A stretch of DNA of 37,082 nt from an uncultured Mucilaginibacter sp. (GTDB lineage Bacteria; Bacteroidota; Bacteroidia; Sphingobacteriales; Sphingobacteriaceae): positions 24,123-61,204 of the forward strand of contig NZ_CALMAT010000150.1 of the NCBI RefSeq assembly GCF_937859865.1, given 5' to 3'. Position numbers and translations under genes: made by a program. Position 1 is the stretch's first letter. Each line of letters starts with the position of its first letter. The notes under the pieces are model-generated. The model saw only the letters and a list, made by a program, of their open reading frames with translations. It had not been told where the DNA came from and made no database searches. This document shows, piece by piece, positions 2,430 through 37,082 of this stretch.

Positions 2430-2441
2430 ATGCTTCTTTTA
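2430..2441 (-). repeat. TAAAAGAAG(C/T)AT element, C variant
   Basis: Exact copy, reading ATGCTTCTTTTA on the + strand. It faces the copy at 2325 about 95 bases away. The 277-base gap 2308-2584 holds three exact copies and no gene that I can see. Confidence 0.9.
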
Positions 2442-2508
2442 TTACTTGTAATTAACATATAGTTGATTTTAATTCACTTATGCTAATTCAATACTAATTT
2501 TTATAAGG

Positions 2509-2520
2509 TAAAAGAAGCAT
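2509..2520 (+). repeat. TAAAAGAAG(C/T)AT element, C variant
   Basis: Exact copy with the full upstream half (AATTTTTATAAGG directly before it), 64 bases upstream of the TTG start of the GT47-like gene. Confidence 0.92.
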
Positions 2521-6850: not shown

Positions 6851-6893
6851 TTGGATTTTATAGTGGTAAAAGAAGCATTGTATCAAAATCCAA
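6851..6893. repeat. Hairpin enclosing a TAAAAGAAGCAT copy
   Basis: TTGGATTTT (6851-6859) pairs perfectly with AAAATCCAA (6885-6893), and the stem can extend by TA/TA pairs. The loop contains the element at 6867. It fills almost the whole 60-base gap between the GT11 and GT2 genes. It may act as an attenuator or terminator, though no T-run follows. Confidence 0.6.
6867..6878 (+). repeat. TAAAAGAAG(C/T)AT element, C variant
   Basis: Exact copy, preceded by GGATTTTATAGTGG; full two-part form. It lies 28 bases before the next ATG. Confidence 0.92.
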
Positions 6894-6905: not shown

Positions 6906-7910
6906 ATGGTTAATTTGGTATCTGCCATCATTCCAAATTATAACCATGAACGTTATTTAATACAACGTATTGATTCTGTATTAAACCAAACTTATCAAAA
7001 CTTTGAAATCATTATCTTAGATGATTGTTCTTCTGACGACAGTAGGTTGATTATCGAGCAATACAGGAATCATTCAAAAATAAAACATATTGTTTATAAT
7101 GAAATCAATTCAGGAAGTGTTTTTTTACAATGGGAAAAAGGAATCGCTTTGGCGTCCGGAGATTATATTTGGATGGCGGAAAGCGATGATTATGCAGATA
7201 ACAATTTCTTAGAATCCCTGGTTAATATAACCAATCAAAACCCAAATGTTGGCTTGGCTTTTTGCGGTTCTAATACAGTAGATGAAAATGGTGTAAGTAT
7301 TGGAAAATTGGTTCAGGAAGTTGCAAACAACCACAATGGTTATTATTTAAATAATGGCTATGATGAATGTAAAGATGCTTTTTTCTTTCATCCGATTGTA
7401 CCAAATGCAAGTGCAGTTATCTTTAAAAAAGAAAATTTTTATAAAGTTGATGCTTCTTTTAAACTATATAAAATTTGCGGCGATTGGCAATTTTGGATTG
7501 ACATCTGTTTTGACAATTACATTGCTTACTGGCCACAATGTTTAAATTACTTCCGCCAGTCTGATACTTCTGTAAGCAGATCGAAACATTATATCAAAGA
7601 CAATTATAAAATATTTTTATTAGAAAAATTAAAAGTAAGTTTATATGCTTACCGTAAAGTTAGATACAACATTTCATTAAAAAACAAATTAAAATATACA
7701 GACATCTATTTGTTCAGTGTAATATTAGAAGCTTCGCGAAAAAGAATTTTTCTAAATAAAGCTGATGTTAAATACATTATAAAATCCTTGTGTTTTTTAT
7801 CCCCTGTTACCGGGATTGTTTTTTTTAAATCCATGGCAGATGTAATTTTGTTTGGTTTAAGAAAAGTAAACAGAACACTTACCAAAAAAATGTTGCTAAA
7901 AACAGCATGA
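6906..7910 (+). CDS. Family 2 glycosyltransferase
   Basis: 334 aa, ATG start. GT-A motifs: VSAIIPNYNHERYLIQRIDS at the N-terminus, IILDDCSSDDS (DD at 39-40) and MAESDDYAD (SDD at 93-95). The middle (FHPIVPNASAVIF, then GDWQFWIDIC) is typical of GT2 members near rhamnosyl- and galactosyltransferases, but the donor cannot be assigned. The C-terminal 60 residues are basic with a hydrophobic stretch (PVTGIVFFKSMADVILF), perhaps a membrane-associating tail. Its stop overlaps the next start by 4 bases (ATGA). One exact 12-mer copy sits inside at 7450. Confidence 0.87.
   Translation: MVNLVSAIIPNYNHERYLIQRIDSVLNQTYQNFEIIILDDCSSDDSRLIIEQYRNHSKIKHIVYNEINSGSVFLQWEKGIALASGDYIWMAESDDYADNNFLESLVNITNQNPNVGLAFCGSNTVDENGVSIGKLVQEVANNHNGYYLNNGYDECKDAFFFHPIVPNASAVIFKKENFYKVDASFKLYKICGDWQFWIDICFDNYIAYWPQCLNYFRQSDTSVSRSKHYIKDNYKIFLLEKLKVSLYAYRKVRYNISLKNKLKYTDIYLFSVILEASRKRIFLNKADVKYIIKSLCFLSPVTGIVFFKSMADVILFGLRKVNRTLTKKMLLKTA
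7450..7461 (-). repeat. TAAAAGAAG(C/T)AT element inside a GT2 gene
   Basis: Exact copy within coding sequence, read as D-A-S-F-K on the coding strand. On the complement it is preceded by AAATTTTATATAG, so even this coding copy keeps the AT-tract half. Confidence 0.85.
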
Positions 7911-11252: not shown

Positions 11253-12260
11253 ATGTCAGAGCCATTAGTTTCCGTTATCATTCCTACTTATAATTACACA
11301 AATTATATCTTAGAAGCTATTGACAGTATTTTAAGCCAAAATTATCCGCAAGATAAAATTGAAATAATTGTTGTTGACGATGGCTCAACAGACAACACTT
11401 TTGAGGTTTTAAAAGATTTGGTTGATAAAAACAGCATCCAATATTATTACCAGGAAAATAAAGGAAAAGCCAATGCTACTTTTAATGCCATACAAAGGTG
11501 TACCGGAAAATATGTCTTTAACTTGGACGCCGATGATTACTTTTTACAAAACAAAATTGCGGAATATGTCAAAGTTTTTGAAAGCGATCAGAGTATTGTA
11601 CATGTAGGAACAGCGGCCAAAGTATTGTACCAGCAAACAAATGTATTGGTAACAGAAAAACTGCCAAAAGACATTTTAGGGAAACCTTTGTATGGCAATT
11701 GGCTTTTGCAACGTTTTTACAGCAGCAATATGTTTTTTGGCGGAGGAACTACGTATTCGGCAAGGGCTTCGGTATTAAAAACTATCCAAATTCCGGACGA
11801 AGTAGACATGTATATTGATGAATTTTTAATATTGGCCATACTGCCTTTAGGCAAGAGTTTTTTTATAGAAAAACCTTTATCAGTTTGGCGGATGCACAAA
11901 GATAATTTTTCTGTTTTTGCAGAGCTAAAAGAAAACCAAATCAAAAAAGACAAAAGGTTGTTGCGATCTTCGGCGGCTGTTTTAAAATATCTTATTGAAA
12001 ACAACTTTGATCAAAAACTGATTACTATTTACAGTTTACAGGATGCCACCCGTCAAATGGCTTTTAAAGAATCAACTAACAACAAAAAAATAAGCGATAT
12101 TGTTGATTATGCTTTTAAAGTATTTTTTAAGATAAAACCTGGTTTAAGGTTGATTAATAAATACAATGTAATGAACCGTTTGATACCTTTAAACATCATG
12201 AAATTGGTAAAAAAATCATACCAACCAACAAGTATAACTTTTAATGCTGATATCAAATAA
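11253..12260 (+). CDS. Family 2 glycosyltransferase
   Basis: 335 aa, ATG start 4 bases after the previous stop. Classic GT2: VSVIIPTYNYTNYILEAIDS, IIVVDDGSTDNTFEVL (DDGST 42-46) and FNLDADDYF (D-A-D-D 92-95). Residues after about 190 contain LSVWRMHKDNFS, the R/H-W-x-x-x block common in this family. The N-terminal half is well conserved and the rest divergent. It probably adds one sugar to the repeat unit, linked to the GT61 gene in one transcript. Confidence 0.88.
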   Translation: MSEPLVSVIIPTYNYTNYILEAIDSILSQNYPQDKIEIIVVDDGSTDNTFEVLKDLVDKNSIQYYYQENKGKANATFNAIQRCTGKYVFNLDADDYFLQNKIAEYVKVFESDQSIVHVGTAAKVLYQQTNVLVTEKLPKDILGKPLYGNWLLQRFYSSNMFFGGGTTYSARASVLKTIQIPDEVDMYIDEFLILAILPLGKSFFIEKPLSVWRMHKDNFSVFAELKENQIKKDKRLLRSSAAVLKYLIENNFDQKLITIYSLQDATRQMAFKESTNNKKISDIVDYAFKVFFKIKPGLRLINKYNVMNRLIPLNIMKLVKKSYQPTSITFNADIK

Positions 12261-12308
12261 AAATAGTTTGAAACTTTGTTTCTTGCAAAAATACGCTCTC
12301 TTTCATAG

Positions 12309-13418
12309 ATGAAAACTACTTATATTGTAACACCAAATTACCTGCCAGATATTTGTGGCATTGGAGATTACACTAGTTTTTTATTTAAAAATTTACAGGA
12401 AAAAAATGTTGATGTACATATCATTACTTTTTCACAAGATGCAACAGAAAGTGAACAGGTACATGTAATCCAAAAAGGCGAAGAGGAAAAAGCTGCTTCC
12501 TGGCTTAAATTTTTAAAACCGCCAACAGAAGTTAACACCATCATTTTTCAGTACGAACCTTATTCGTTCAGTAAAATTGGTATTCCTTTATATTTGATCT
12601 ATATTGTTTTAGTTTTAAGGATTAAAGGATATAAGCTTGCCGTTATGTTTCATGAGGTAGCAACAAGGTTATACATTTTAAACCCAAAAAAAATCACCGT
12701 CAGCCTTTTACAACTTGTTACTGCTTATTTCATTACGGCATTGTCTTCGGCACGGACAACTTCGACTACTTTTAATGCCAAACAATTAAAGCCCTTTCAT
12801 TTCACGTTTTTGCCCATCCCAAGCAATTTTACCAAAAACAACAACATTGGCCAAACCAATAACAATTTGCCTGCTATTGGTTGCTTTGCCAACCGTGTAG
12901 ATTCTTTTTTTGCAGAAGTTGTAGATCAAATTTTAAAAAACAATTTGGGCACAGTACTTTTGATAGGCAAACAAAGTAAGGCCAATAATGATGTTTGGAC
13001 GAAACATAACTTTTATAACAGGCCGGGTTTAACTATTACCGGTACTTTATCACCCGATGGCATAGAAAAATATTTTGACAGCCTTGATATATTTATCCAT
13101 ATGGAAAAGGTTGATGCACACGGAAGAGGCGGCGCATCATTAAAAAACGGAAGTTTGGCAGCGGCTTTGAATTGGGGTTTGCCGGTAATTACCTCAAAAG
13201 GCGACATGACAGATGAAAACGCACTGCAAAATAAAGTAAATATTTTATTTGTAAATAACCCAAACCGAACAGAAGACTGGGCTGAAGCTGTTGAAATGTT
13301 AAACAACAACCAGGATTTAAAAAAACTAATACAAAAAAATGCTGCTTCTTTTTATGAACATACTTTAAGCTGGCCTGTCATCACCCAAAAATATATTGGT
13401 ATTTTAAACAACATTTAA
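12309..13418 (+). CDS. GT4-like glycosyltransferase
   Basis: 369 aa. The N-terminal TYIVTPNYLPDICGIGDYTS is a GT-B acceptor half with the glycine-rich G-I-G-D-Y loop seen in WcaI/GumH-type enzymes. The C-terminal half includes FANRVDSFF, GTVLLIGKQS and SLDIFIHMEKVDAHGRGGAS, then GLPVITSKGD. The usual E-x7-E is replaced by a V-D-A-H-G-R-G-G-A-S segment, so donor specificity may be unusual. ATG at 12309. The 73-base gap after it carries an element copy. Confidence 0.75.
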   Translation: MKTTYIVTPNYLPDICGIGDYTSFLFKNLQEKNVDVHIITFSQDATESEQVHVIQKGEEEKAASWLKFLKPPTEVNTIIFQYEPYSFSKIGIPLYLIYIVLVLRIKGYKLAVMFHEVATRLYILNPKKITVSLLQLVTAYFITALSSARTTSTTFNAKQLKPFHFTFLPIPSNFTKNNNIGQTNNNLPAIGCFANRVDSFFAEVVDQILKNNLGTVLLIGKQSKANNDVWTKHNFYNRPGLTITGTLSPDGIEKYFDSLDIFIHMEKVDAHGRGGASLKNGSLAAALNWGLPVITSKGDMTDENALQNKVNILFVNNPNRTEDWAEAVEMLNNNQDLKKLIQKNAASFYEHTLSWPVITQKYIGILNNI

Positions 13419-13446
13419 ATTATCATTAGCAAACAAAATATAGGTG

Positions 13447-13458
13447 TAAAAGAAGTAT
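13447..13458 (+). repeat. TAAAAGAAG(C/T)AT element, T variant
   Basis: Exact TAAAAGAAGTAT, preceded by CAAAATATAGGTG, in the gap between two GT4 genes. Confidence 0.9.
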
Positions 13459-13509
13459 TGCATCAATATTAGTTGAAAATATACATAAACCTTGTTCTAT
13501 AATATTAAT

Positions 13510-14580
13510 TTGAAAATACTGTTTTTATCACATAATTTTTACCCATACATTGGCGGGATCGAAGCTAACTCGGATATTCTGTCTCGTGCTTTTTTTAAAG
13601 CCGGCCATGAAGTCCGTGTTTTAACCTGGACAAAGTTTTCGGGCGAAAACAACTTCCCTTTCCCAATTGTAAGAAATCCATCTGTATTCCGGTTGTTAAA
13701 AGAACATCAATGGGCGGATGTTGTATTTGAAAATAACCCTTGTTTACGTTTGGCCTGGCCAAACTTGATTTTTAAACATATTTCCGTTATCGCTTTGAAC
13801 ACCTGGGTTTCTCGTATTGACGGAGAAACGGGTATCCACGGAAAAATAGGTTTGCAAGACCGCTTAAAGTTTTTGTGGTTTAAACGTGCATCCAAGGTAA
13901 TAGCTGTAAGTGATGCCATTAGGAAACACAGTTTTCCACCGGCCATTGTCATCGGCAACCCTTATCAGTCAGACGTTTTTAAAATTATTCCTAATATTAT
14001 CAAGAGCGAAGCATTTGTTTTTCTTGGGAGATTGGTATCAAATAAAGGTGCAGACGAAGCAATAAAAGCAGTGCAAAAATTGATAGTGATGGATCAAAAA
14101 GAACACTTTTTAACTTTTAAGCCTACTTTAACCATCATTGGAGACGGGCCAGAAAAACCAAAGCTGGAGAAACTGGCCACCGATCTGGGCTTAGCAGCAT
14201 TTGTAAACTTTGTTGGCCCTCTTCGGGGCAATGATATTGCAGTTTGTTTAAACAAACATCGTTATATGCTCGTGCCATCGTTATGGGAAGAACCTTTTGG
14301 CAATGTTGTTTTAGAAGGAATGGCTTGTGGCTGCCTGCCCATCGTTTCGAATGGCGGCGGATTGCCCGATGCAATCGGAAACGCGGGCATTAGTTTTAAG
14401 CGTGGCGATACTGAAGCAATGGTTTTGTGCATAAAAAGAGTACTGCAAAACCCGGAATTAGAGCAACAGCTTCGTAGTGCTGCCAAAAGCCACCTTGCTA
14501 AACATTATCCTGATATAGTTTCACAACGTTACTTGGAAGTGATTGAAAAAGCCGCAAAAAGTACGTTTAAAGCAAATTAA
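13510..14580 (+). CDS. Family 4 glycosyltransferase
   Basis: 356 aa from the TTG at 13510, giving MKILFLSHNFYPYIGGIEAN, the expected GT4 N-terminus; another TTG at 13492 would add six residues. GT-B acceptor loop Y-P-Y-I-G-G-I-E; donor half starts about FVFLGRLVSNKGADEAI; E-E-P-F-G-N-V-V-L-E (about 259-268) is the E-x7-E motif, followed by GMACGCLPIVSNGGGLPD. Retaining transferase, probably peripheral. Its TAA stop shares one base with the ATG of the next gene, so they are tightly coupled. Confidence 0.88.
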   Translation: MKILFLSHNFYPYIGGIEANSDILSRAFFKAGHEVRVLTWTKFSGENNFPFPIVRNPSVFRLLKEHQWADVVFENNPCLRLAWPNLIFKHISVIALNTWVSRIDGETGIHGKIGLQDRLKFLWFKRASKVIAVSDAIRKHSFPPAIVIGNPYQSDVFKIIPNIIKSEAFVFLGRLVSNKGADEAIKAVQKLIVMDQKEHFLTFKPTLTIIGDGPEKPKLEKLATDLGLAAFVNFVGPLRGNDIAVCLNKHRYMLVPSLWEEPFGNVVLEGMACGCLPIVSNGGGLPDAIGNAGISFKRGDTEAMVLCIKRVLQNPELEQQLRSAAKSHLAKHYPDIVSQRYLEVIEKAAKSTFKAN

Positions 14581-19486: not shown

Positions 19487-20724
19487 AACTATTGCATATT
19501 ACGGCAAGCATGGACCCAAAAGTGGGCGGTGTTTGCCAGGCAGTCAGAACAATAGTTAAAAGCCTTGGTGTTTATCCGGATGTTCAAAATACAGTCATTA
19601 GTTTTGATGCTGCGGATGCTTCTTTTATCGGGCAAAATTCTGATTATGTTGAAGCTTTGGGCACCGGAAAAGGGCCATGGTTTTACAACCCCAACTATCT
19701 GCCCTGGCTATTGAAAAACCTGCCACAGTTTGATGCGGTAATTCTACACGGGTTGTGGAATTATCAGGGTTTCGGTTTGATTAAAGCATTGAACCAGTTG
19801 AAAAAGCGGAATGCTTCTTTTACCCCTAAATTTTATGTAATGCCTCACGGGATGTTAGACCCCTACTTTCAAAAGGCATCAGGCAGAAAACTGAAAGCGT
19901 TACGCAACTGGTTTTATTGGAAATTTATCGAACGAAAAGTGGTTAACCAGGCCGACGGGCTGCTGTTTACCTGCGAAGCTGAACTTCAGTTGGCGCGTAC
20001 AACTTTCAAACCATATCTTCCTAAAAAAGAACTGGTAGTAGGTTTGGGCGTGGATGAACCTCCTGCTTTTACGCCAGCTATGCGTGATGCTTTTTTAAAG
20101 AAATGCCCTGGTTTAATCGCGCCTTACCTCCTGTTTATCAGCCGTATCCATCCTAAAAAAGGCGCTGATCTATTGGTGGATGCCTATATTAAAACACAAC
20201 CTTTTAATAATTTAAAGGAGGAAGCTGATCGGCTTAATACCAATACTGTTTTTATCGGCAAAAAATTGGCGTCAACAAAATTGGTGGTTGCCGGGCCGGG
20301 TTTAGAAACGCCATACGGACAAAAAATCAAAGCTGCGGCAGCTAATTTTAAACAGGCAGAAACAGCTATTTATTTTCCGGAGATGCTGACCGGAGATGCA
20401 AAATGGGGCGCATTTTATGGTTGCGAAGCTTTTGTATTGCCCAGCCATCAGGAAAATTTTGGCATTGCAGTGGTAGAAGCTTTAGCTTGCGGCAAACCGG
20501 TTTTAATTTCTAACCAGGTAAACATTTGGACTGAAATTGCCGCCGCCCAAGCCGGTATTATTGCTGATGATACCATCGCCGGAACGGAACAATTACTGGA
20601 AAACTGGTTTAAATTATCATCCGAAGAAAAACTTCAAATGGGCAAAAACGCAAGGCAATGTTACGAGAAGCATTTTGCCGTTGCCCCGGCAGCACAACGT
20701 TTTTCAGAAGCTATAAAAAACTAA
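19483..20724 (+). CDS. Family 4 glycosyltransferase
   Basis: 413 aa. MKLLHITASMDPKVGGVCQA gives the N-terminal glycine loop; LHGLWNYQGF and YVMPHGMLDPYFQK are the acceptor-side motifs of the PssF/WbyK-like GT4 group; YLLFISRIHPKKGADLLVDA opens the donor half; SHQENFGIAVVEALACGKPV carries the E-x7-E. It is translationally coupled to the upstream GT4. Two exact copies of the 12-mer are embedded in the first third (19616, 19811), both read as Ala-Ser-Phe. A hairpin terminator follows, so this is probably the last gene of its transcript. Confidence 0.88.
   Translation: MKLLHITASMDPKVGGVCQAVRTIVKSLGVYPDVQNTVISFDAADASFIGQNSDYVEALGTGKGPWFYNPNYLPWLLKNLPQFDAVILHGLWNYQGFGLIKALNQLKKRNASFTPKFYVMPHGMLDPYFQKASGRKLKALRNWFYWKFIERKVVNQADGLLFTCEAELQLARTTFKPYLPKKELVVGLGVDEPPAFTPAMRDAFLKKCPGLIAPYLLFISRIHPKKGADLLVDAYIKTQPFNNLKEEADRLNTNTVFIGKKLASTKLVVAGPGLETPYGQKIKAAAANFKQAETAIYFPEMLTGDAKWGAFYGCEAFVLPSHQENFGIAVVEALACGKPVLISNQVNIWTEIAAAQAGIIADDTIAGTEQLLENWFKLSSEEKLQMGKNARQCYEKHFAVAPAAQRFSEAIKN
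19616..19627 (-). repeat. TAAAAGAAG(C/T)AT element inside a GT4 gene
   Basis: Exact copy encoding D-A-S-F-I. On the complement it is preceded by GAATTTTGCCCGA, keeping the two-part layout. Confidence 0.85.
19811..19822 (-). repeat. TAAAAGAAG(C/T)AT element inside a GT4 gene
   Basis: Exact copy encoding N-A-S-F-T, 195 bases (65 codons) after the previous one and in the same frame. On the complement it is preceded by AAAATTTAGGGG, close to the intergenic consensus. Confidence 0.87.
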
Positions 20725-21490: not shown

Positions 21491-22750
21491 ATGGCACAAA
21501 AGAGAATTTTATTGATCGGTGGAAATTTTTATCCCGAACTGACCGGAATAGGAAAGTACAACGGCGAAATGATGGATTGGCTGGCCGCGCAGGGAAATAT
21601 TTGCACGGTAATTACCACCTATCCTTATTATCCGGATTGGAAAGTAAAAACGCCTTACAACAAAAAAGCATATTGGTTCAGTAAAGATTTCAAACAAATT
21701 AATGCAAATCCTTCTAACCCGATAAAAATTTACCGTTGCCCACATTTTATCCCGGCAAACCCATCTGGTTTAACACGTATTTTGTCTGATATTTCGTTCT
21801 GCCTTTCTGCAACCGTAATGGTGTTTTTTTTATTGTTTAAAAAGAAACACAATTATGTAATTACCGTTTCGCCGCCTTTTTTGACCGGTATTTTAGCTAT
21901 TGTTTATAAAAAATTCAAAGGCGCAAAGTTTTTTTACCACGTACAGGATTTGCAAATTGATGCGGCCGCAGATTTAGGGATGATCAAATCACGGTTGTTG
22001 ATCAGGCTACTTTTTAGAATAGAAAGGTTTATCATGAAACAGGCAGATTTGCTCAGCAGTATTTCGGAAGGAATGATTGACCGGATCAAACAAAAAGCTG
22101 GCAGGGAAAGGGTGAGTTTTTTCCCCAATTGGGTTGATACAACCTTGTTTTTCCCTATTGCCAAAAAAGACGGGATAAAAGAAGCATTCGGGTTTCAAGC
22201 TACAGACAAGGTTATTCTATATTCGGGTGCCATCGGCGAAAAGCAAGGGCTGGAAGCGATTTTATATACTGCCGATTCGCTAAAAAACCGTTCAGGTTTA
22301 AAATTTGTTATTTGCGGTTCAGGCCCTTACAAAAAGAAACTGGAAGATTTAAAAACAAATTTGCAAACACAAAACGTCGTTTTTTTGCCATTGCAACCGG
22401 CGGAAAAACTGAACGAGTTTTTAAATATGGCCGACGTACATTTGGTGATCCAGAAAACAAATGCTAGTGATTTGGTGATGCCGTCTAAACTTACAGCCAT
22501 TCTTGCAGTCGGAGGGTTAGCAGTTATTACAGCGCCAGTCCACTCAAGTTTGTTTAAAGTTGTCAACAATAACCAAATCGGCTTACTGGCAGAACCGGAA
22601 AACCAGGTGGCATTAACAGAAGCCATCCAAAAAGCGCTAAACCCGGAAATGGGCCACATCAACGAAAATGCACGTAATTATGCCAAGCAATATTTATCCA
22701 TCAACGAAATACTAAAAAAGTATGCCCAAGACATGGCATCAATTAAGTAG
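21491..22750 (+). CDS. wcaI: WcaI-family glycosyltransferase (GT4)
   Basis: 419 aa, ATG 10 bases after wcaF. The N-terminus RILLIGGNFYPELTGIGKYN and then TTYPYYPDWKV is diagnostic for the WcaI family; VITVSPPFLTGI and FYHVQDLQIDAA follow; the donor half begins VILYSGAIGEKQGLEAIL. The motif near NMADVHLVIQKTNASDLVMP replaces the usual E-x7-E, with K-L-T-A-I-L-A-V-G-G as the donor-binding turn, as in other WcaI proteins. Known role: a transferase in colanic-acid repeat assembly, often with fucosyl transfer proposed. One exact 12-mer copy lies in the coding region (22176). Confidence 0.87.
   Translation: MAQKRILLIGGNFYPELTGIGKYNGEMMDWLAAQGNICTVITTYPYYPDWKVKTPYNKKAYWFSKDFKQINANPSNPIKIYRCPHFIPANPSGLTRILSDISFCLSATVMVFFLLFKKKHNYVITVSPPFLTGILAIVYKKFKGAKFFYHVQDLQIDAAADLGMIKSRLLIRLLFRIERFIMKQADLLSSISEGMIDRIKQKAGRERVSFFPNWVDTTLFFPIAKKDGIKEAFGFQATDKVILYSGAIGEKQGLEAILYTADSLKNRSGLKFVICGSGPYKKKLEDLKTNLQTQNVVFLPLQPAEKLNEFLNMADVHLVIQKTNASDLVMPSKLTAILAVGGLAVITAPVHSSLFKVVNNNQIGLLAEPENQVALTEAIQKALNPEMGHINENARNYAKQYLSINEILKKYAQDMASIK
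22176..22187 (+). repeat. TAAAAGAAG(C/T)AT element inside wcaI
   Basis: Exact copy encoding I-K-E-A-F. Preceded by AAAAAAGACGGGA, so the AT half is A-tract only. Confidence 0.8.
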
Positions 22751-24313: not shown

Positions 24314-24596
24314 TTTTTTACCTTTAAATATTTAAAGTGGTATGGTTAAACTTTTGAAGCTCTGTTAAAAATTGTACATAAATAAAAAATTGCATGCTTC
24401 TTTTACCGGGTAAAAATTGGTATGGTTGCATTGAACAAATCAAAAAAACAAACGATTTAGATTTTTGGGCGATAAAAAAAGCATTAACCCAAAAGAGACA
24501 GAAAAAATTAAACAACTTCAATTTTAAAGCAGCAGGTTTAAGATTACAATTAATTTTATAATTACAGATTAGAACAACAATTTAACAAAAAAACAT
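24314..24596. other. 283-base gene-free gap before gmd
   Basis: It holds a 14-base palindrome TTTAAATATTTAAA (24323-24336), a direct repeat TGGTATGGTT (24338-24347 and 24418-24427), one exact element copy (24394) and a one-mismatch copy TAAAAAAAGCAT (24473-24484) in the opposite orientation. The spacing, about 200 bases ahead of gmd, suits a promoter/leader, but I cannot place a convincing -7/-33 pair. Confidence 0.5.
24394..24405 (-). repeat. TAAAAGAAG(C/T)AT element, C variant
   Basis: Exact copy, followed on + by CCGGGTAAAAATTGG. TTTTACC and GGTAAAA here form a perfect short palindrome, the clearest example of the TTTTA/TAAAA symmetry. Confidence 0.92.
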
Positions 24597-26701: not shown

Positions 26702-26713
26702 ATGCTTCTTTTA
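26702..26713 (-). repeat. TAAAAGAAG(C/T)AT element between convergent genes
   Basis: Exact copy in the 41-base convergent gap between fcl and mobA. Flanks make GGCGAT...ATCGGC around the core, so CGAT/ATCG can pair. The upstream half AATTTTATGCCGA is present on the complement. Confidence 0.92.
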
Positions 26714-30383: not shown

Positions 30384-30421
30384 TAAAAAAAGCATCAAAC
30401 TTGCGCCTGATGCTTCTTTTA
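30384..30421 (-). terminator. Element-pair terminator after the hexosaminidase gene
   Basis: TAAAAAAAGCATCA (30384-30397) faces TGATGCTTCTTTTA (30408-30421), one mismatch in 14 pairs and a 10-base loop. Read on the minus strand the stem GCATCA...TGATGC is followed by seven T, giving a good intrinsic terminator 21 bases after the hexosaminidase stop. It is built from two copies of the repeat (one exact, one with a single change). Confidence 0.75.
30410..30421 (-). repeat. TAAAAGAAG(C/T)AT element, C variant
   Basis: Exact copy forming one arm of the terminator; followed on + by CCTATAAAAAATTGG, the AT half of the element. The facing arm at 30384-30395 is TAAAAAAAGCAT. Confidence 0.92.
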
Positions 30422-30442: not shown

Positions 30443-32359
30443 TTACTTTCTTGGTTTTGGCAAACGGGCCGTTAAATCAGTTATCGGGATACTCATCATG
30501 CGGCTAATGGGTTTGTTGCCGCGATAAGTGATGATTTTAATTTGTGCCGCTTCTTTGGGCACCGTTAAAGGCTGGGTGTATTTTGGATAAAACCGGTCGG
30601 GGAAAGAGTTATCAAAACTGTAATAAATATCCAACGGTTTAATTTCTGTAGATAAAGCAATTGTCATGGTGCTGTCTCTCCTCGAAACGTTTACAATCGG
30701 GTCGTACATACTTGGCGCGTAATTAATTTCTGCTTCTTCAAACCGCGGAAACTGGCCTTCCACCCTTTGGGAAAAATTGTCCCAATTCTTGCTTGCCTTT
30801 GGCGACCAAAGCGTTTCTGCTATGGCAAGCCCTCTTGGCCAGGTCATGTATTCTGCTTTACGCAAATTATAAACCTGTTCTGTCCATAAATTGGCTTGTC
30901 CGCCTTTAATCAGCTTGGCATCAACACTATCCGGCACTGGTTCAAACTGGTACGTTTTATCCAACCGCAACGTAGCATAAACTTTTGATTCGATGGAAGG
31001 ATCGCCCTGCATGTAATCCAAATAAGCATAAGTAGTTGGGCTCATCACTACTTCGTGGCCCATTTTTGCCGCTTCGATTCCGCCTTTCATGCCGCGCCAG
31101 CTCATCACCACAGCGTTTGGCGCCAGTCCGCCTTCCAAAATCTCGTCCCAGCCCATAAACTTTTTGCCTTTGGATTCTACAATCTTTTCGACGCGCTTTT
31201 CAAAATAGCTTTGCACTTCTTCCATGTTTTTAAGGCCTTCTTTTTGCATCAGCATTTTAACGGCCTCGCTTTTTTCCCAAAAGTTTTTCGGGCATTCGTC
31301 TCCGCCTAAATGAATGTATTGAAAAGGAAAAAGTTGCGCAATTTGCGTAATTACTTTGTCCATAAACTCGTAAACTTTTTCGTTTGCCGGGCATAAAGTG
31401 TTGTCAATCAAAGCAACAGGCGGCTGGCCGTGCGACCAGTCCATAATTTCTTCGCCAGAACGCACCTTGTATTTATCGGCACCAGGCGTGCAGGACAGCT
31501 CGGGATAAGAAACTACAGCCGCCAAACTATGCCCCGGAACATCAATTTCCGGCAAAATATTTACAAAACGTTCCTGCGCATATTTCACCAGTTCTTTAAT
31601 ATCTTCCTGGGTATAAAAACCGCCGTAAGTACGCGGTTCATCAGCAGGTGGCGGGGCAAAAGTGCCGAAATAACCAACCCGTTTTGCACTGTAAGCGCCA
31701 ACTTCGGTCAAGCGCGGCAAGCCTTTAATTTCTATGCGCCAGCCTTCGTCATCGGCCAAATGCAGGTGCAGCAAATTGTATTTGTAGCGCACCATGGCAT
31801 CAATATATTGCTTCACTTCTGCAACGGTGAAGAAATGGCGGGCAACATCAAACATCAAACCTCGCCAGCCAAACCTCGGATAATCAGTAATTTTTACACA
31901 AGGAACTGCCCATTTTATGCCTTTTACGGCTGTTTTGCTCTCAATTTCTTTGGGTAGCAACTGCACCAACGTTTGCACGCCATAAAATAAACCGGCTGCT
32001 GCGTTGGCTTTGATCACAATTCCTTTTGGCGTGATGGTAAGCTGATAACCTTCTTTTCCGATTGCCGCGTTTTCTGTTGGGTTAAGCGCCAATTTTATGG
32101 TGGTAAAAGAAGCATTGCCCTTCAACAAAACGCTTTTGCCGGTAGCCGTTTGGATCTTATTTTTTAAATAGGAAGTAACCGATGAAACTTCTGCCGAAGA
32201 ACTTGCGCCAATTGTAACCGTGGCAGGCAATGAAAACTGGCCGGAACTTTTAACCATACTTACCGGTTGTGGAATGATGTCAATGGTTTTGGCCGAAGTT
32301 TGGCTGAAAGTTTTAAAAGATAACAAACAGCAAAAAAGTAACGAGGAAATTTTAAGCAT
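30443..32359 (-). CDS. Secreted beta-N-acetylhexosaminidase, GH20
   Basis: 638 aa from the ATG at 32359. An N-terminal signal peptide (KISSLLFCCLLSFKTFSQTS) is followed by the GH20b-like N-terminal domain (IIPQPVSMVKSSGQFSLPAT, GYQLTITPKGIVI) and the GH20 catalytic barrel: R-G-L-M-F-D-V-A-R-H-F-F, NLLHLHLADDEGWRIEIKGL, LPEIDVPGHSLA, and the catalytic pair in IHLGGDECPKNFW (D354-E355). It cleaves terminal GlcNAc or GalNAc from glycans in the periplasm or outside. A short C-terminal CBM-like tail (YYSFDNSFPDRFYPKY) ends it. A TTG at 32374 is in frame but less likely. It has an exact element near its 5' end (32104). Confidence 0.94.
   Translation of the reverse strand: MLKISSLLFCCLLSFKTFSQTSAKTIDIIPQPVSMVKSSGQFSLPATVTIGASSSAEVSSVTSYLKNKIQTATGKSVLLKGNASFTTIKLALNPTENAAIGKEGYQLTITPKGIVIKANAAAGLFYGVQTLVQLLPKEIESKTAVKGIKWAVPCVKITDYPRFGWRGLMFDVARHFFTVAEVKQYIDAMVRYKYNLLHLHLADDEGWRIEIKGLPRLTEVGAYSAKRVGYFGTFAPPPADEPRTYGGFYTQEDIKELVKYAQERFVNILPEIDVPGHSLAAVVSYPELSCTPGADKYKVRSGEEIMDWSHGQPPVALIDNTLCPANEKVYEFMDKVITQIAQLFPFQYIHLGGDECPKNFWEKSEAVKMLMQKEGLKNMEEVQSYFEKRVEKIVESKGKKFMGWDEILEGGLAPNAVVMSWRGMKGGIEAAKMGHEVVMSPTTYAYLDYMQGDPSIESKVYATLRLDKTYQFEPVPDSVDAKLIKGGQANLWTEQVYNLRKAEYMTWPRGLAIAETLWSPKASKNWDNFSQRVEGQFPRFEEAEINYAPSMYDPIVNVSRRDSTMTIALSTEIKPLDIYYSFDNSFPDRFYPKYTQPLTVPKEAAQIKIITYRGNKPISRMMSIPITDLTARLPKPRK
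32104..32115 (+). repeat. TAAAAGAAG(C/T)AT element inside the GH20 gene
   Basis: Exact copy with the full upstream half CCAATTTTATGGTGG. On the coding (minus) strand it encodes N-A-S-F-T, in the poorly conserved N-terminal domain. Confidence 0.9.
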
Positions 32360-32372
32360 AACAGCGAGGTTC

Positions 32373-32421
32373 AAAAAAATAGTTCTTTTATCAACACCAA
32401 TTTAGGTTTGATAAAAGAACT
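32373..32421 (-). terminator. Intrinsic terminator between M14 and GH20 genes
   Basis: AGTTCTTTTATCAA (32381-32394) and TTGATAAAAGAACT (32408-32421) are perfect 14-base inverted arms with a 13-base loop. On the minus strand a run of seven T (A-run at 32373-32379) follows directly. It would stop transcripts coming from the M14 peptidase gene, 80 bases after its stop, just before the GH20 start. The arms contain TAAAAGAA, so a distant relation to the element is possible. Confidence 0.75.
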
Positions 32422-32486: not shown

Positions 32487-32498
32487 TAAAAGAAGCAT
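32487..32498 (+). repeat. TAAAAGAAG(C/T)AT element, C variant
   Basis: Exact copy 3 bases outside the M14 stop, preceded by CCAATTTTATGGCGA. Flanks GGCGAT and ATCGGC resemble those of the copy at 26702. Confidence 0.92.
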
Positions 32499-32501
32499 CG
32501 G

Positions 32502-35282
32502 CTACTTTAACGCATACAATTGATTAAACAGCAATTTAAAAGTAGCGTGGGATTGGCCTCTAAAAGTAATATCCGGACCGAAAGCATACAATTTCCCGGC
32601 TCCTACCGGCGCCATAAATCCGGCCACACCGTCTTTCAAATATGCTTGCCCAAAAGCCCAGCCGCTGCGCAAAGGTTTATCGGTGGCAAACCAAACCAAT
32701 GGTTTTACGCCTTTTTCGGTGGCGTTGGCATCCAGTTTAAAAACTGGGCTGTTATCAAAATTAATGTCGGTTTCCTTGTCCATTCCCCAAGCAGCGGGTT
32801 GGTTTGGGTCAATGGTAGCCCGTAAAATACTTCCGGGAATGTAATATTTCGTTCCGGGAAGCGGATGGGTTTCGCCGCTGCTGTTTTTCTCCACCAAATC
32901 ATTATGCACCGGCAAACCCAAATGGTAAGCCAAATTGGTACTCGTTCCCAGCGCAACAATTGATCCTCCAGCTTCCAAAAAAGCTTTCAGTTGCGGGATT
33001 GATTTTTCCGGTGTGATTTTGCCCAGCATTTTTCGGAATTCTGCAGGTACATCTTCCGGTTTTGGCATTCGTTCGGCAAACATACTTCTGTCGGCCGCCT
33101 CTCCTCCTACCGGCGGAATGGCGCGCGTTACAAAAACGATCACGTCGTACTTATCTTTCAGGTTTCCGGCATCAATATCCTGCGCAAAGATTTGTTCGTA
33201 TGGAAAATGGTATTGCTCCATCAGCCAGCGTGTCCAGCCGGAAGGGATCGAGCCGCCGTAAGTATCCCAAAGGCCAATCCGCATGGAAGAAACTTTGGTT
33301 GCGCCAGTTGGTTTTTCTTTTGAATTCATCGCTTTCACACCTAAATCAGCAGCAGATTTTTCTAAAACTGCCTGCGCTTTTGTTCCTACGGGAATAAAAA
33401 ACGTACCCGTTTCTGCAGCGTTGCCTTCGCCTTTTGGCAAACGGTAAACTTCAACACCAGCCTTTAGCAAATCGTTTACCGCAATAAAAGCATTGTTTTG
33501 TTGGGAACTGAGCAAATAACCGTTTCCGGAAACAGCAGCAAGCGTTTGTTTTGGGGGAGATTGAACCTCGCCGTAAGGAATGCGTTGAAAAGGGCCGTTA
33601 AAAGCAGTCAGGATCCGGTCAAAATGAACGCCCATTTGGAAAGCCAAAGTCCAGCCGGCAGAATCATAAGGACGGATTGGCGGGCCGCCGGGATATAAAA
33701 AATCATTTGGATGGTCTTGCGGCTCAAACATATCCAGCACATGCGGCCGAAAAGCCTGATCGGTTTTAACCACAAAAGAACCTGCAGGATAAGTTTTTCC
33801 TTCCACCGTAAATGCCGCTGTTGCTTTTTGTACCGAAATTCCGGCCTTAATCAAAGCATTGATAAATTTGGTTGCCGTTGGAAAATCAGGCTGATTGGCC
33901 GGTAAAATGTACCCACGCGGATCGCGTAAGTCCGGGTTTTTCAAAACGGCATCGTAATATTTCATCGGGATATCGCTGCCACGCGTCATCCAGCCCATCG
34001 GATCACCAGCGGTGGCGGTACTGTTTTTATCGGTACTTTTTTGGTCATTGCGGTAAGCCTGCATAATCGCATCTGATTTTTTTGGCGATAAAGTCCAGTA
34101 ATCTTTGCTGCCTCTTTCGATCGAGTTTTTGCCCATGCGGTAGATGTTGAACAAAACCTCGTCACGCTGGCGCGCTGCATAATCTAAAACAGAATAATTA
34201 AGCGAAACCGAATAATCAATGGATTGCTTAAAGTGCCAAACATCCTGCGGCAAAACCGGGTTCGGCGTGGCACCGTTCGGAATTAAACGCGCCGGAACAA
34301 CCGGTATTTTCTCGGGCGTTGGGCCGCCGATAATTTCCGTCAGCAAACCAATCATGTTATGAAATTGTGTGGTGGTGCGCAAACCGCCATTATACCAGGT
34401 TGAGAAACTGGAGCCGGTTAAACGCGTGTAACCGGGTTTGTTCTCCACATTCAAACGGCTGTACATTGCAGCGCCCAAAGCATCAATACCGGTAATCATC
34501 AGCGGATCAAAAACATAATTAAAAGGGTCGCGGTACGGCGGGCCAGCCAGCACTGAACCTTCCGGGCCGCGCTGGTGGTGGTTGTACATAATTTGCGGAA
34601 ACCATTCTACAAACAACTGCCGGTTCATGTTGCTGCTTTCTTTGGTGTTCATCATGTAAAAATCGCGGTTGTTGTCATGACCAATGTATTTTTCATACAA
34701 GCGCGGAATGTTCAAATTCCGCTTTTTAGGGTCGCTTTCTTGCATGTACCAGTTGGAAACCAGTTCCTGCCCATCGGGGTTTGCGTGCGTCATCAGCACA
34801 ATTACATTGTCCAAAATGCGCATCGTTTCCGGGTCTTTCCGGCTTACTAAATTGTACATGGTCTCGATCAATTGGTGTGCACCAACCACTTCCGTTGCGT
34901 GTAAACCGCCGTCAATCCAAACCACGGCTTTACCTTCGGCAGCCAAAGCACGCGCTTGTGCATCGGTTAAACCTTCGGCACGAGCTAACCGCTGGGAAAT
35001 TTCTTTGTACCGCGCCAAATTTTTGATGTTGGCCGGAGAAGAAACGACCATCATGTATTGGTGCCGGCCTTCTTCGGTTAAACCAATATCAACTAATTTG
35101 GTGCGGTTGGAGGAGGCCGCCACTTTTTTAAACCAGGCTTCCGTTTGTGTGTAATTGGCCAACTGGTAATCATCGCCAATGGCAAAACCAAAATGTTCTT
35201 TTGGCGAGGGAACGTTTTGTGCCGAAACTATTTGAAACAGGAACAGCAGCAGGAACAATGCGGACAACAGTTTTTTAGTCAT
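32502..35282 (-). CDS. Secreted M14-type zinc carboxypeptidase, large form
   Basis: 926 aa. Signal peptide LLSALFLLLFLFQIVSAQ. The catalytic domain (about 35-370) has G-G-L-H-A-T-E (zinc ligands H128 and E131), N-P-D-G (168-171), NNRDFYM, M-Y-N-H-H-Q-R-G-P (H235 or H236 as third ligand) and T-E-I-I-G-G (E316, catalytic glutamate position). The remaining 550 residues form a large C-terminal region with VKTDQAFRPHVLDMFEPQDH, SGWTRWLMEQYHFPYEQIFA and MAPVGAGKLYAFGPDITFRG, probably including a flavodoxin/GATase-like fold (by eye only). Predicted periplasmic or surface enzyme cutting peptides from the C-terminal end; substrate unknown. Upstream lies its paralogue. Confidence 0.9.
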   Translation of the reverse strand: MTKKLLSALFLLLFLFQIVSAQNVPSPKEHFGFAIGDDYQLANYTQTEAWFKKVAASSNRTKLVDIGLTEEGRHQYMMVVSSPANIKNLARYKEISQRLARAEGLTDAQARALAAEGKAVVWIDGGLHATEVVGAHQLIETMYNLVSRKDPETMRILDNVIVLMTHANPDGQELVSNWYMQESDPKKRNLNIPRLYEKYIGHDNNRDFYMMNTKESSNMNRQLFVEWFPQIMYNHHQRGPEGSVLAGPPYRDPFNYVFDPLMITGIDALGAAMYSRLNVENKPGYTRLTGSSFSTWYNGGLRTTTQFHNMIGLLTEIIGGPTPEKIPVVPARLIPNGATPNPVLPQDVWHFKQSIDYSVSLNYSVLDYAARQRDEVLFNIYRMGKNSIERGSKDYWTLSPKKSDAIMQAYRNDQKSTDKNSTATAGDPMGWMTRGSDIPMKYYDAVLKNPDLRDPRGYILPANQPDFPTATKFINALIKAGISVQKATAAFTVEGKTYPAGSFVVKTDQAFRPHVLDMFEPQDHPNDFLYPGGPPIRPYDSAGWTLAFQMGVHFDRILTAFNGPFQRIPYGEVQSPPKQTLAAVSGNGYLLSSQQNNAFIAVNDLLKAGVEVYRLPKGEGNAAETGTFFIPVGTKAQAVLEKSAADLGVKAMNSKEKPTGATKVSSMRIGLWDTYGGSIPSGWTRWLMEQYHFPYEQIFAQDIDAGNLKDKYDVIVFVTRAIPPVGGEAADRSMFAERMPKPEDVPAEFRKMLGKITPEKSIPQLKAFLEAGGSIVALGTSTNLAYHLGLPVHNDLVEKNSSGETHPLPGTKYYIPGSILRATIDPNQPAAWGMDKETDINFDNSPVFKLDANATEKGVKPLVWFATDKPLRSGWAFGQAYLKDGVAGFMAPVGAGKLYAFGPDITFRGQSHATFKLLFNQLYALK

Positions 35283-35332
35283 AAAAACAGCATGAGGTTG
35301 ATGAATGATTTTTTGAAATTTATTTAGGCAGA

Positions 35333-35344
35333 TAAAAGAAGCAT
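35333..35344 (+). repeat. TAAAAGAAG(C/T)AT element, left arm
   Basis: Exact copy after TTTATTTAGGCAGA; left arm of the hairpin. Confidence 0.93.
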
Positions 35345-35357
35345 CAGCATTTCGCCC

Positions 35358-35369
35358 ATGCTTCTTTTA
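35358..35369 (-). repeat. TAAAAGAAG(C/T)AT element, right arm
   Basis: Exact copy followed by CCACCTAAAAATCAG; right arm of the hairpin. Confidence 0.93.
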
Positions 35370-35399: not shown

Positions 35400-37082
35400 T
35401 TATTTACTGGCATACAACTGGTTAAACAACAACCTGAACGTGCTGTGCGCCTGCCCGCGGAAAGTAATTTCCGGCCCAAAAGCATACAGTTTGCCTGCAC
35501 CAACCGGAGCCACAAAAGCGGCAACACCATCCTTCAGGTATTTTTGCCCCCAGGCCCAGCCACTGTCTAATGGTTTATCGGTTGCAAACCAGGCCAGGCG
35601 TTTTACACCTTTTGCTTCGGCATTGGCATCCAATTTAAAAACCGGGCTCCGGTCAAAATCCACATCGTTTTGTGCCGGCATTCCGTAATTTGCTGGCTGA
35701 TCAGTTTCAAAACTGGCACGCAGCAAACTTCCCGGAATGTAGTATTTGGTTCCCGGGATTGGCCTTTCTTTTCCGTTCGGGCCAACTTCTGTTAAATAAT
35801 TGTGCACCGGCAAACCCAAATGATAAGCCAAATTGGTACTTGTGCCGATGGTAATAATGTTTCCGCCGTCTTGCAAGAATTTTTTAAGCTGAGGAACAGA
35901 TTTTTCCGGTGTGATTTTTCCTAACCAGGATCGGTATTCTGCCGGGATCGAATCTGCTTTTGGCTGCCTGTCGGGAAACTCCGGCCTTTCTGCACGGCCA
36001 ACAGGCGGAATAGCACCGGTAACAAAAATCAGCACATCATATTTTTTATGGAGGTCTCCGGCATCAATTTCCTGCGTGTAAACGGTTTGGGCCGGATAAT
36101 GATATTGCTCCATCAGCCAACGCACCCAGCCCGAAGGAATGGAACCGCCATAGGTATTAAAAATCCCGATGCGGACCGGCGAAATAGCAACGCCACCTGT
36201 GGGCGCTTGTGTGGCTGCGGAAACTTTCAACCCAAAACCGGATGCTTCTTTTACCAGTATATTTTGAGCCTGATTTGAAGCAGGAACGTAAAAAGTGCCC
36301 GCGCCCATATCTGGCATTCCGCTTACGCCTTTTGGCAAACGGTAAACTTTAACGCCAGCTTTCAACAAATCATTTACAGCGATAAAACCGTTGTTAATAG
36401 CCGGACTAATTAAATAGCCACCTTGTGCCGAAGCTAAGTTTTGTTTCGGTGGAGATTGGATTTCGCCGTAAGGAATTTTTCGGAAAGGGCCGTTAAAAGC
36501 GTCCGTCAAACGGTCAAACTTTACGCCCATTTGAAAAGCCAAAGTCCATCCGGCAGAATCGTAAGGACGGATCGGCGGCCCGCCTTCGTATTGGAAATCG
36601 TTTGGATGGTCTTGCGGCTCGAACATATCCAAAACATGGGGCCGAAAAGCCTGATCAGTTTTAACAATATAAGAACCTGTGGGATATTTTTTTCCGGCAA
36701 CGGTAAAATCAGCCGTTGCTTTTTGAACCTGAACGCCCGACCAAAGCAAAGTATTGATAAACTTTACGGCCGTTGGAAAATCAGTTTGATCAGCCGGGAT
36801 GATGTAACCACGTGCATCGCGGTAAGCCGGGTTTTTAAGCACTTCGGTATAATATTTAGAAGGAATGCTTTCTTCTCTGCCAAAAGAAAATTCGCCAGAA
36901 CGGCTGTTACTGTCTTTTTTGGCTCCACTTTTATCTTTGTTGTAAGCTGTTTTTATAGAGTCTATATATTTTGGATAAAAAGTCCAGTGATCTTCCTTGC
37001 CGCGATCAATGGAGTTTTTGCCCATTTTATAAATATTGTATAATAGTTCTGTGCGATAACGGGCTGCATAATCCAACACCGC
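35400..37082 (-). CDS. Second M14-type peptidase paralogue (5' part outside window)
   Basis: About 560 residues of the C-terminal region; the frame is open to the window edge. It aligns along its whole length with the C-terminal 560 residues of the neighbour, for example AFRPHVLDMFEPQDHPNDF, which is identical in both, and IPSGW-x-RWLMEQYHYPAQTV and APVGAGKLYAFGPEITFRGQ. Thus this is a tandem duplication. The zinc-binding catalytic half, expected before the V-L-D-Y-A-A-R segment near 37060, is not in the window, so whether it is intact cannot be judged. An exact 12-mer copy sits at 36242, where the neighbour has none. Confidence 0.9.
   Translation of the reverse strand, partial: AVLDYAARYRTELLYNIYKMGKNSIDRGKEDHWTFYPKYIDSIKTAYNKDKSGAKKDSNSRSGEFSFGREESIPSKYYTEVLKNPAYRDARGYIIPADQTDFPTAVKFINTLLWSGVQVQKATADFTVAGKKYPTGSYIVKTDQAFRPHVLDMFEPQDHPNDFQYEGGPPIRPYDSAGWTLAFQMGVKFDRLTDAFNGPFRKIPYGEIQSPPKQNLASAQGGYLISPAINNGFIAVNDLLKAGVKVYRLPKGVSGMPDMGAGTFYVPASNQAQNILVKEASGFGLKVSAATQAPTGGVAISPVRIGIFNTYGGSIPSGWVRWLMEQYHYPAQTVYTQEIDAGDLHKKYDVLIFVTGAIPPVGRAERPEFPDRQPKADSIPAEYRSWLGKITPEKSVPQLKKFLQDGGNIITIGTSTNLAYHLGLPVHNYLTEVGPNGKERPIPGTKYYIPGSLLRASFETDQPANYGMPAQNDVDFDRSPVFKLDANAEAKGVKRLAWFATDKPLDSGWAWGQKYLKDGVAAFVAPVGAGKLYAFGPEITFRGQAHSTFRLLFNQLYASK
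36242..36253 (-). repeat. TAAAAGAAG(C/T)AT element inside the second M14 gene
   Basis: Exact copy, encoding V-K-E-A-S on the coding strand, with CAAAATATACTGG before the core. The equivalent place in the neighbouring paralogue (E-K-S-A-A) lacks it, with no length difference. Confidence 0.88.

Follow-up and report, generated by a model that had tools for sequence, protein, structure and literature searches.

A genus-limited, highly abundant 12-base word in Sphingobacteriaceae resembles a DNA-uptake sequence

INTRODUCTION

Towards one end of a 37,082-nucleotide stretch of DNA from the draft genome of an uncultured Mucilaginibacter sp. (hereafter 'the window') lie two neighbouring M14-like genes, A and B, of which only the second carries the short word TAAAAGAAGCAT; the copy is on the minus strand, appearing as ATGCTTCTTTTA at positions 36242-36253. 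The question raised by this locus is how a word that recurs across the window came to be present in one paralogue and absent from the other—by insertion of a mobile unit, or by substitution under selection or biased recombination—and, more generally, what such a word is for.

To our knowledge, strong uptake sequences are known only from the Neisseriaceae and the Pasteurellaceae, both of which have type IV pili, and we know of no earlier convincing DUS-like system in the Bacteroidota. The USS of the Pasteurellaceae has the core AAGTGCGGT, with A/T tracts downstream; ComP, of the Neisseriaceae, is a pilin. Our literature search, in which subscription journals were thinly covered, found no report of uptake sequences in Bacteroidota or Sphingobacteriaceae; among the papers listed for the word itself, none was on this subject to judge by title. 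Sections of one study put the USS of H. influenzae at 1,465 to 2,206 copies, depending on method, and describe it as scarce in newly acquired segments, with an inner core and AT-tracts governing uptake; the same sections hold that molecular drive can yield such distributions (PMC7811141). The Neisseria DUS is likewise portrayed, in passages of a second study, as highly conserved and absent from recently acquired genes (PMC2397512), whilst part of a third describes DUS 'dialects' across the Neisseriaceae, with two in one genome in Simonsiella (PMC3630211). Excerpts from work on Riemerella report competence without pilus homologues (PMC8459023), and a preference of R. columbina for its own DNA, only A/T-rich words having come out of the k-mer search in that work (PMC7965970, Table 3).

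RESULTS

The word is abundant on both strands and limited to one genus

The window holds 15 exact copies of TAAAAGAAGCAT, against 0.04 expected from shuffles, and the 3.98-Mb draft genome that contains it (G000) holds 2,114, compared to two copies of the reversed word used as a control. Together with G000, two further genomes (G001 and G002; 1,947 and 1,118 copies) make up the genus as we use the term here, the reversed word occurring once or twice in each of the three; the other 118 of the 121 genomes sampled across the family have between 0 and 10 copies. Among the genomes examined, abundance of the word is limited to this one genus. Copies in G000 are divided almost equally between strands (1,059 forward / 1,055 reverse), such that the word displays the extreme, clade-limited over-representation on both strands by which an uptake sequence is recognised.

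Strand balance also bears on a possible Chi- or KOPS-like role tied to replication direction; like those motifs, the word is short, non-palindromic and very frequent. In addition to the even genome-wide count, four contigs have no consistent strand preference (131 of 250 copies forward in 880 kb of G002), and 80-kb bins are mixed in orientation, the most uneven having 8 forward and 19 reverse, in what are draft assemblies with replichores unassigned. Seeing no consistent skew, we rejected this reading on the strand counts, and it is the least probable of those considered.

We also looked for dense words of their own in other Bacteroidota, scanning loci of at least 9 kb drawn from a set of 78. 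Among the loci listed, a dense word was seen only in L001, which belongs to G002 and hence to this genus (nine copies in 22.8 kb); of the remainder, L068 had a single A/T-rich 10-mer six times and the other 15 stood at five. A scan of viral contigs found at least 120 stretches, with one match per contig among the 80 loci listed. The Pasteurellaceae core is absent among the top over-represented 10-mers, so that the word does not belong with the USS. Separately, a further 10-mer, TCCGCAGAAA, is over-represented in a 1.2-Mb sample of G002 (59 copies, none reversed).

Two core forms share an upstream A/T tract

A second form of the word, TAAAAACAGYAT, is also abundant, with 856, 714 and 786 copies in the three genomes of the genus versus 0-13 in 18 relatives. 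Allowing for C or T at position 10, and for GA or AC at positions 6-7, there are four accepted forms; mixed dinucleotides are far rarer (AA with C at 13, 21 and 33 copies in the genome parts examined). Upstream of the core, each of positions -11 to -8 holds A or T in 93-100% of copies, whichever of the two forms or three genomes is considered; position -2 is mostly G and position -1 mostly a purine, again in all three. The full motif can thus be written as an A/T tract, then G-R, then TAAAA(GA or AC)AGYAT. The tract is mostly T-type and otherwise A-type (in G000, A-type for 64 of 365 GA-form copies, and also 23 of 108); since A-type tracts occur, it does not form one side of a fixed hairpin.

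Copies are concentrated between genes but also lie within them

The four forms account for 29 copies in the window, 16 of them intergenic and 13 coding (for examples, see Table 1). Across the genome parts examined, their overall density is 0.6-0.8 per kb; splitting this by simple mechanical ORF calling gives 0.27-0.31 per kb for coding and 2.6-3.6 per kb for intergenic DNA. Copies are spread along contigs except for the island gaps described below. Inside ORFs the main word is found in sense and antisense orientation at similar frequency (16/14, 35/33 and 24/16), with intergenic copies being densest between convergent ORFs.

This last preference would suit a transcription terminator or RNA processing signal, as would close inverted pairs capable of forming hairpins (e.g. 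35333-35369) and the potential for TTTTA to pair with TAAAA in T-type copies. Against it stand the even sense/antisense split, the coding copies themselves and the A-type tracts, which are unable to pair in this way; we therefore regard such a signal as a very improbable explanation of the word. Known uptake sequences, too, serve secondarily as terminators.

Table 1. Features of the window discussed in the text
Feature	Position	Strand	Remarks
Paired element	2430-2520		Each outer end formed by a word: 2430-2441 (-), 2509-2520 (+)
Word	6867-6878	+	Intergenic
Word	7450-7461	-	Coding
Word	19616-19627	-	Coding
Word	19811-19822	-	Coding
Second form, TAAAAACAGTAT	20243-20254	-	Coding, same gene
Word	22176-22187	+	Coding; A-type tract upstream
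Word	24394-24405	-	Intergenic
Word	26702-26713	-	Intergenic, between convergent ORFs
Word	30410-30421	-	Intergenic
Word	32104-32115	+	Coding, antisense in GH20 gene (30443-32374)
Word	32487-32498	+	Intergenic, past stop of gene A
M14 zinc carboxypeptidase gene A	32502-35282	-	PF00246, E 1.1e-26; old paralogue, lacking the word where it aligns with B
Second form, TAAAAACAGCAT	35282-35293	+	Overlaps first base of gene A
Inverted word pair	35333-35344 / 35358-35369	+ / -	Just past stop of gene B; terminator-like layout
M14-like gene B	35400-37082	-	Cut by contig end; G002 orthologue has the word at the same site
Word in gene B	36242-36253	-	Codons GTA AAA GAA GCA T; V-K-E-A-S
A/T-only tract, AAAAT	36261-36265	-	8-12 bases upstream of the M14 word; flank common to most copies

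The M14 copy differs from its orthologues by substitution

Returning to the M14 genes, gene B reads ATA CTG GTA AAA GAA GCA TCC GGT (I-L-V-K-E-A-S-G) around the word and gene A reads GTT TTA GAA AAA TCT GCT GCT GAT (V-L-E-K-S-A-A-D) at the aligned spot, the residues being those given in the original prediction. Six of the 12 bases of the word site differ between the two genes. Also borne out is the statement that the two align ungapped on both sides: in a pairwise alignment, counted by hand, the block covers about 14 residues ahead of the site and about 80 beyond it, the nearest gap being one of two residues, upstream. A many-sequence alignment shows a shorter A/B block (2 residues to the left and 13 to the right), with columns that are gapped in both rows. 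The fragment of gene B available to us has no Pfam match, the stretch equivalent to the peptidase domain of A falling beyond the contig end.

In a tree of 35 rows, B belongs to a 15-row clade (support 100/99) alongside second copies from Mucilaginibacter, Pedobacter and Chitinophaga, whilst A is placed among other copies from Mucilaginibacter and Pedobacter (91/95); the B copies of G000 and G002, which bear the word, are sisters (99/97). As A and B are therefore old paralogues, their comparison says little about the origin of the M14 copy. The right comparison is with the orthologues of B and it points the same way: Mucilaginibacter B orthologues, carrying CAAAAGAAACCT, AAAAAGCAGCAG and AAAAAGCATCAG at the word site, stand 3, 3 and 4 bases away from the word and are ungapped. 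Of 80 aligned M14 sequences, only gene B of G000 and G002 has the word; eight have a gap at the site and the closest word-less sequences are three bases off. A search with gene B found both M14 genes in G000 and G002 and neither in G001, where the pair has probably been lost or falls in an assembly gap. On this alignment, the simplest account would be a single gain by substitutions, before the split between G000 and G002.

Matched sites are maintained, and in coding DNA turn over mostly by substitution

We then compared copies across the genus, taking as 'matched' those sites lying in the best blastn hit with at least 350 aligned columns, irrespective of synteny, with paired copies marked and kept; the length rule was adopted as a looser count matched multi-copy paired elements to non-orthologous places. 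The majority of copies fell outside any alignment of this length, at least in part because the comparison covered only portions of the genomes (for G001 to G002, 165 aligned from about 569 copies in the part covered). Of those 165, 84 were identical and 40 had changed to another accepted form (Table 2); for control 12-mers in the same alignments, 213 of 2,271 (9%) were identical.

Table 2. Fate of word copies at matched sites; the two directions of a genome pair share sites and are thus not independent
Comparison	Aligned	Identical	Other accepted form	Ungapped change	Gapped
G001 to G002, all	165	84	40	27	14
G001 to G002, coding	93	55	22	15	1
G001 to G002, intergenic	72	29	18	12	13
G002 to G001, coding	101	53	23	20	5
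G002 to G001, intergenic	67	32	17	1	17
G000 to G001, all	48	24	10	10	4
G000 to G002, all	48	22	8	10	8

Changed coding copies were ungapped in 37 of 38 cases (G001 to G002) and 43 of 48 (G002 to G001), with the remaining pairs similar: 9/9 for G000 to G001, 11/12 for G000 to G002, 5/5 for G001 to G000 and 7/7 for G002 to G000. This upholds, for coding copies in general, the proposal made for the M14 copy that turnover is by substitution and not by insertion of a unit, albeit that ungapped change in genes should be read with care, indels there being selected against in any case; gaps are commoner at intergenic copies (13 of 72 and 17 of 67 in the two directions). It likewise supports the original preference for selection or biased recombination over a simple transposon as the source of coding copies, the two processes being indistinguishable here. 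Passages of PMC2397512 hold that many new copies of the DUS are thought to arise by recombination and not by point mutation, and multi-base changes at our matched sites need not, on that account, all be stepwise mutation.

At 13 coding sites the core switches between GA and AC, which in their reading frames must change the amino acid (E/T, S/V or L/F). Such switches alter the protein yet keep an accepted word, indicating that the constraint is on DNA and not on protein. Overall, matched sites are more conserved than their flanks and change largely by substitution, as is characteristic of uptake sequences.

Paired copies form elements of favoured length

Outward-facing pairs of the word number 41 in G000, 24 in G001 and 27 in G002 (genome parts examined), and 66 of the 92 span 85-97 bp end to end; by eye, the interiors of some G000 pairs are similar. 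These paired elements may be a small family of mobile or structured repeats, each with a word at either end, and some intergenic copies may have been brought in by them. Extending this to every copy—the word marking the ends of mobile palindromic elements of the MITE or REPIN type, with single copies as their remains—would account for the pairs, their favoured spacing and the likeness of some interiors. It is, however, hard to square with the 78 of 138, 129 of 168 and 94 of 115 main-word copies (three genomes) that have no neighbour within 100 bp, with coding changes that are mostly ungapped, or with a tract that may be T- or A-type and so provides no fixed hairpin; moreover, the forms interconvert at matched sites and target duplications are not evident by eye. 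We consider a mobile origin for the word as a whole improbable.

The word is scarce in at least one putative mobile region

In the 1.2 Mb of G002 examined, the largest gap between copies of the main word measures 81 kb (G002:C1 42318-123491; loci L142, L148-L151 and L143), where about 2e-8 such gaps would be expected on that contig. This stretch encodes a TrwC-type relaxase, serine and tyrosine recombinases/integrases and an ArdC protein, and to judge by this gene content is probably one or more integrated mobile elements. The next two stretches, of 30 kb each (about 0.02 expected for each), contain in one case a MobA/VirD2-type relaxase and in the other, at 31.6% GC, a run of genes that by eye are glycosyltransferase-like; all three stretches have a foreign look. 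Words of all four forms number 4, 5 and 4 in the three stretches against 48.7, 18.3 and 18.0 expected, a comparison affected by their having been selected for lacking the main word. A further expectation comes from the other three forms alone, which make up 380 of the 717 four-form copies in the part of G002 covered: 4, 5 and 4 are seen against approximately 26, 10 and 10. The shortfall in the 81-kb stretch alone is strong; the 30-kb stretches are only about twofold short.

A genome-wide distribution on both strands, with strong upkeep, could also reflect thousands of binding sites, preserved by selection, for a chromosome-organising or nucleoid-associated protein specific to the genus. The A/T tract is suggestive of shape readout by such a protein, and scarcity in islands is expected here too if the islands are recent. 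This is the main rival to an uptake sequence, though in our estimation an unlikely one: 0.6-0.8 sites per kb seems to us above the usual need, coding copies are kept at the cost of protein changes, copies run all along the contigs outside the island gaps and we have no candidate protein.

Competence genes are present, pilus components are not found

Proteins matching ComEC, DprA and HHH_3 are encoded in all three genomes of the genus. Among 21 genomes, some with the word and some lacking it, ComEC is, however, found in 19, DprA in 21 and an HHH protein in 21; being present in nearly all word-less relatives, they prove little. An N-methyl pilin (PF07963) was not found in the three genus genomes, an absence that is provisional as these are drafts, and no type II/IV secretion ATPase (PF00437) scored over the cut-off in the same three draft/metagenome assemblies; the two together are present in seven of 18 relatives and not in the rest. 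The type IV pilus with ComP that typifies a Neisseria DUS system is accordingly not seen in the genus drafts, again provisionally. With pilus parts not found, any uptake would have to cross the outer membrane in a pilus-independent way. A search for DUF5689, which is part of one uptake protein in Riemerella, likewise found no match.

Directly adjoining comEC (L108 9717-11837, on G000:C20) is a gene for a protein of 682 amino acids (11840-13888), a proximity seen in the two congeners and in the five relatives examined; the protein is 78% identical to its G001/G002 counterparts and 39-45% to those of the five relatives. Residues 59-120 give a weak match to HHH_3 (E 0.043), compared to 1.9e-9 for a relative's copy, which also resembles NCBIfam ComEA models at scores below their cut-offs. 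A comparison of the 682-aa protein with solved chains, by sequence, gave no match; by inspection, its C-terminal part, which ends in phenylalanine, resembles an outer-membrane beta-barrel.

DISCUSSION

Our analysis indicates that the word in gene B is one of thousands of copies of what is probably a DNA-uptake-sequence-like tag. Uptake sequences best fit the combination of genus-limited saturation, a core with an A/T tract, strand symmetry and upkeep through switching of forms, together with turnover in genes that is mostly ungapped and a shortage of copies in at least one mobile region.

The mechanism we envisage is as follows. Members of the genus would be naturally transformable, with a surface receptor that prefers DNA bearing the full motif, such that motif-bearing fragments would be taken up and recombined more often. 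Alleles gaining the motif would then spread and alleles losing it would be repaired, amounting to a molecular drive that, with or without selection for uptake of kin DNA, could fill the genome wherever this is compatible with protein or RNA constraints; such drive may have produced the copy in M14 gene B before G000 and G002 parted. The outer-membrane step would be pilus-independent, as proposed for Riemerella, with the comEC-adjacent 682-aa protein as a candidate component. In this fuller form—pilus-less uptake of self-DNA in Bacteroidota via one or more surface receptors, a bipartite GA/AC motif and a comEC-adjacent outer-membrane barrel—we see the proposal as evenly poised between right and wrong.

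Several observations sit awkwardly with an uptake function. A single receptor would not be expected to accept two dinucleotides whilst their intermediates are rare; possibly the GA and AC cores are read by two receptors, or by one with two binding modes. No pilus was found, whereas the uptake-sequence systems familiar to us use a type IV pilus. Lastly, 14 of 165 sites (G001 to G002) and 8 of 48 (G000 to G002) face a gap.

Set against known systems, the word shares with the Pasteurellaceae USS a core flanked on one side by A/T tracts, a copy number in the thousands and, as described for the USS in PMC7811141 and proposed here, accumulation by biased uptake and recombination; it differs in being an unrelated word from another phylum, with two core forms, one strong tract that lies upstream and no pilus detected. 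As with the DUS of Neisseriaceae, there are thousands of copies, conserved orthologous sites and two forms in one genome; unlike there, where ComP reads the DUS, no N-methyl pilin was found, and what distinguishes the forms, in all three species, is a linked dinucleotide. Riemerella matches in phylum and machinery (ComEC, DprA and an HHH protein, with pilus homologues lacking) and, in R. columbina, in a preference for own DNA, but the words recovered there were all A/T-rich, and DUF5689 is not found here. The pairing of short inverted words at a preferred distance recalls REPIN/RAYT and MITE elements, from which the present case departs in its many solitary copies, some of them coding, and in turnover that at coding sites is mostly by substitution.

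If our interpretation is correct, the genus would represent a third independent case of uptake sequences, in which recognition of self-DNA has re-evolved with other machinery, and would provide a handle on the outer-membrane step of competence in Bacteroidota. It would also supply a natural replicate for the debate over molecular drive versus selection, one in which two interchangeable core forms make turnover of the word directly countable.
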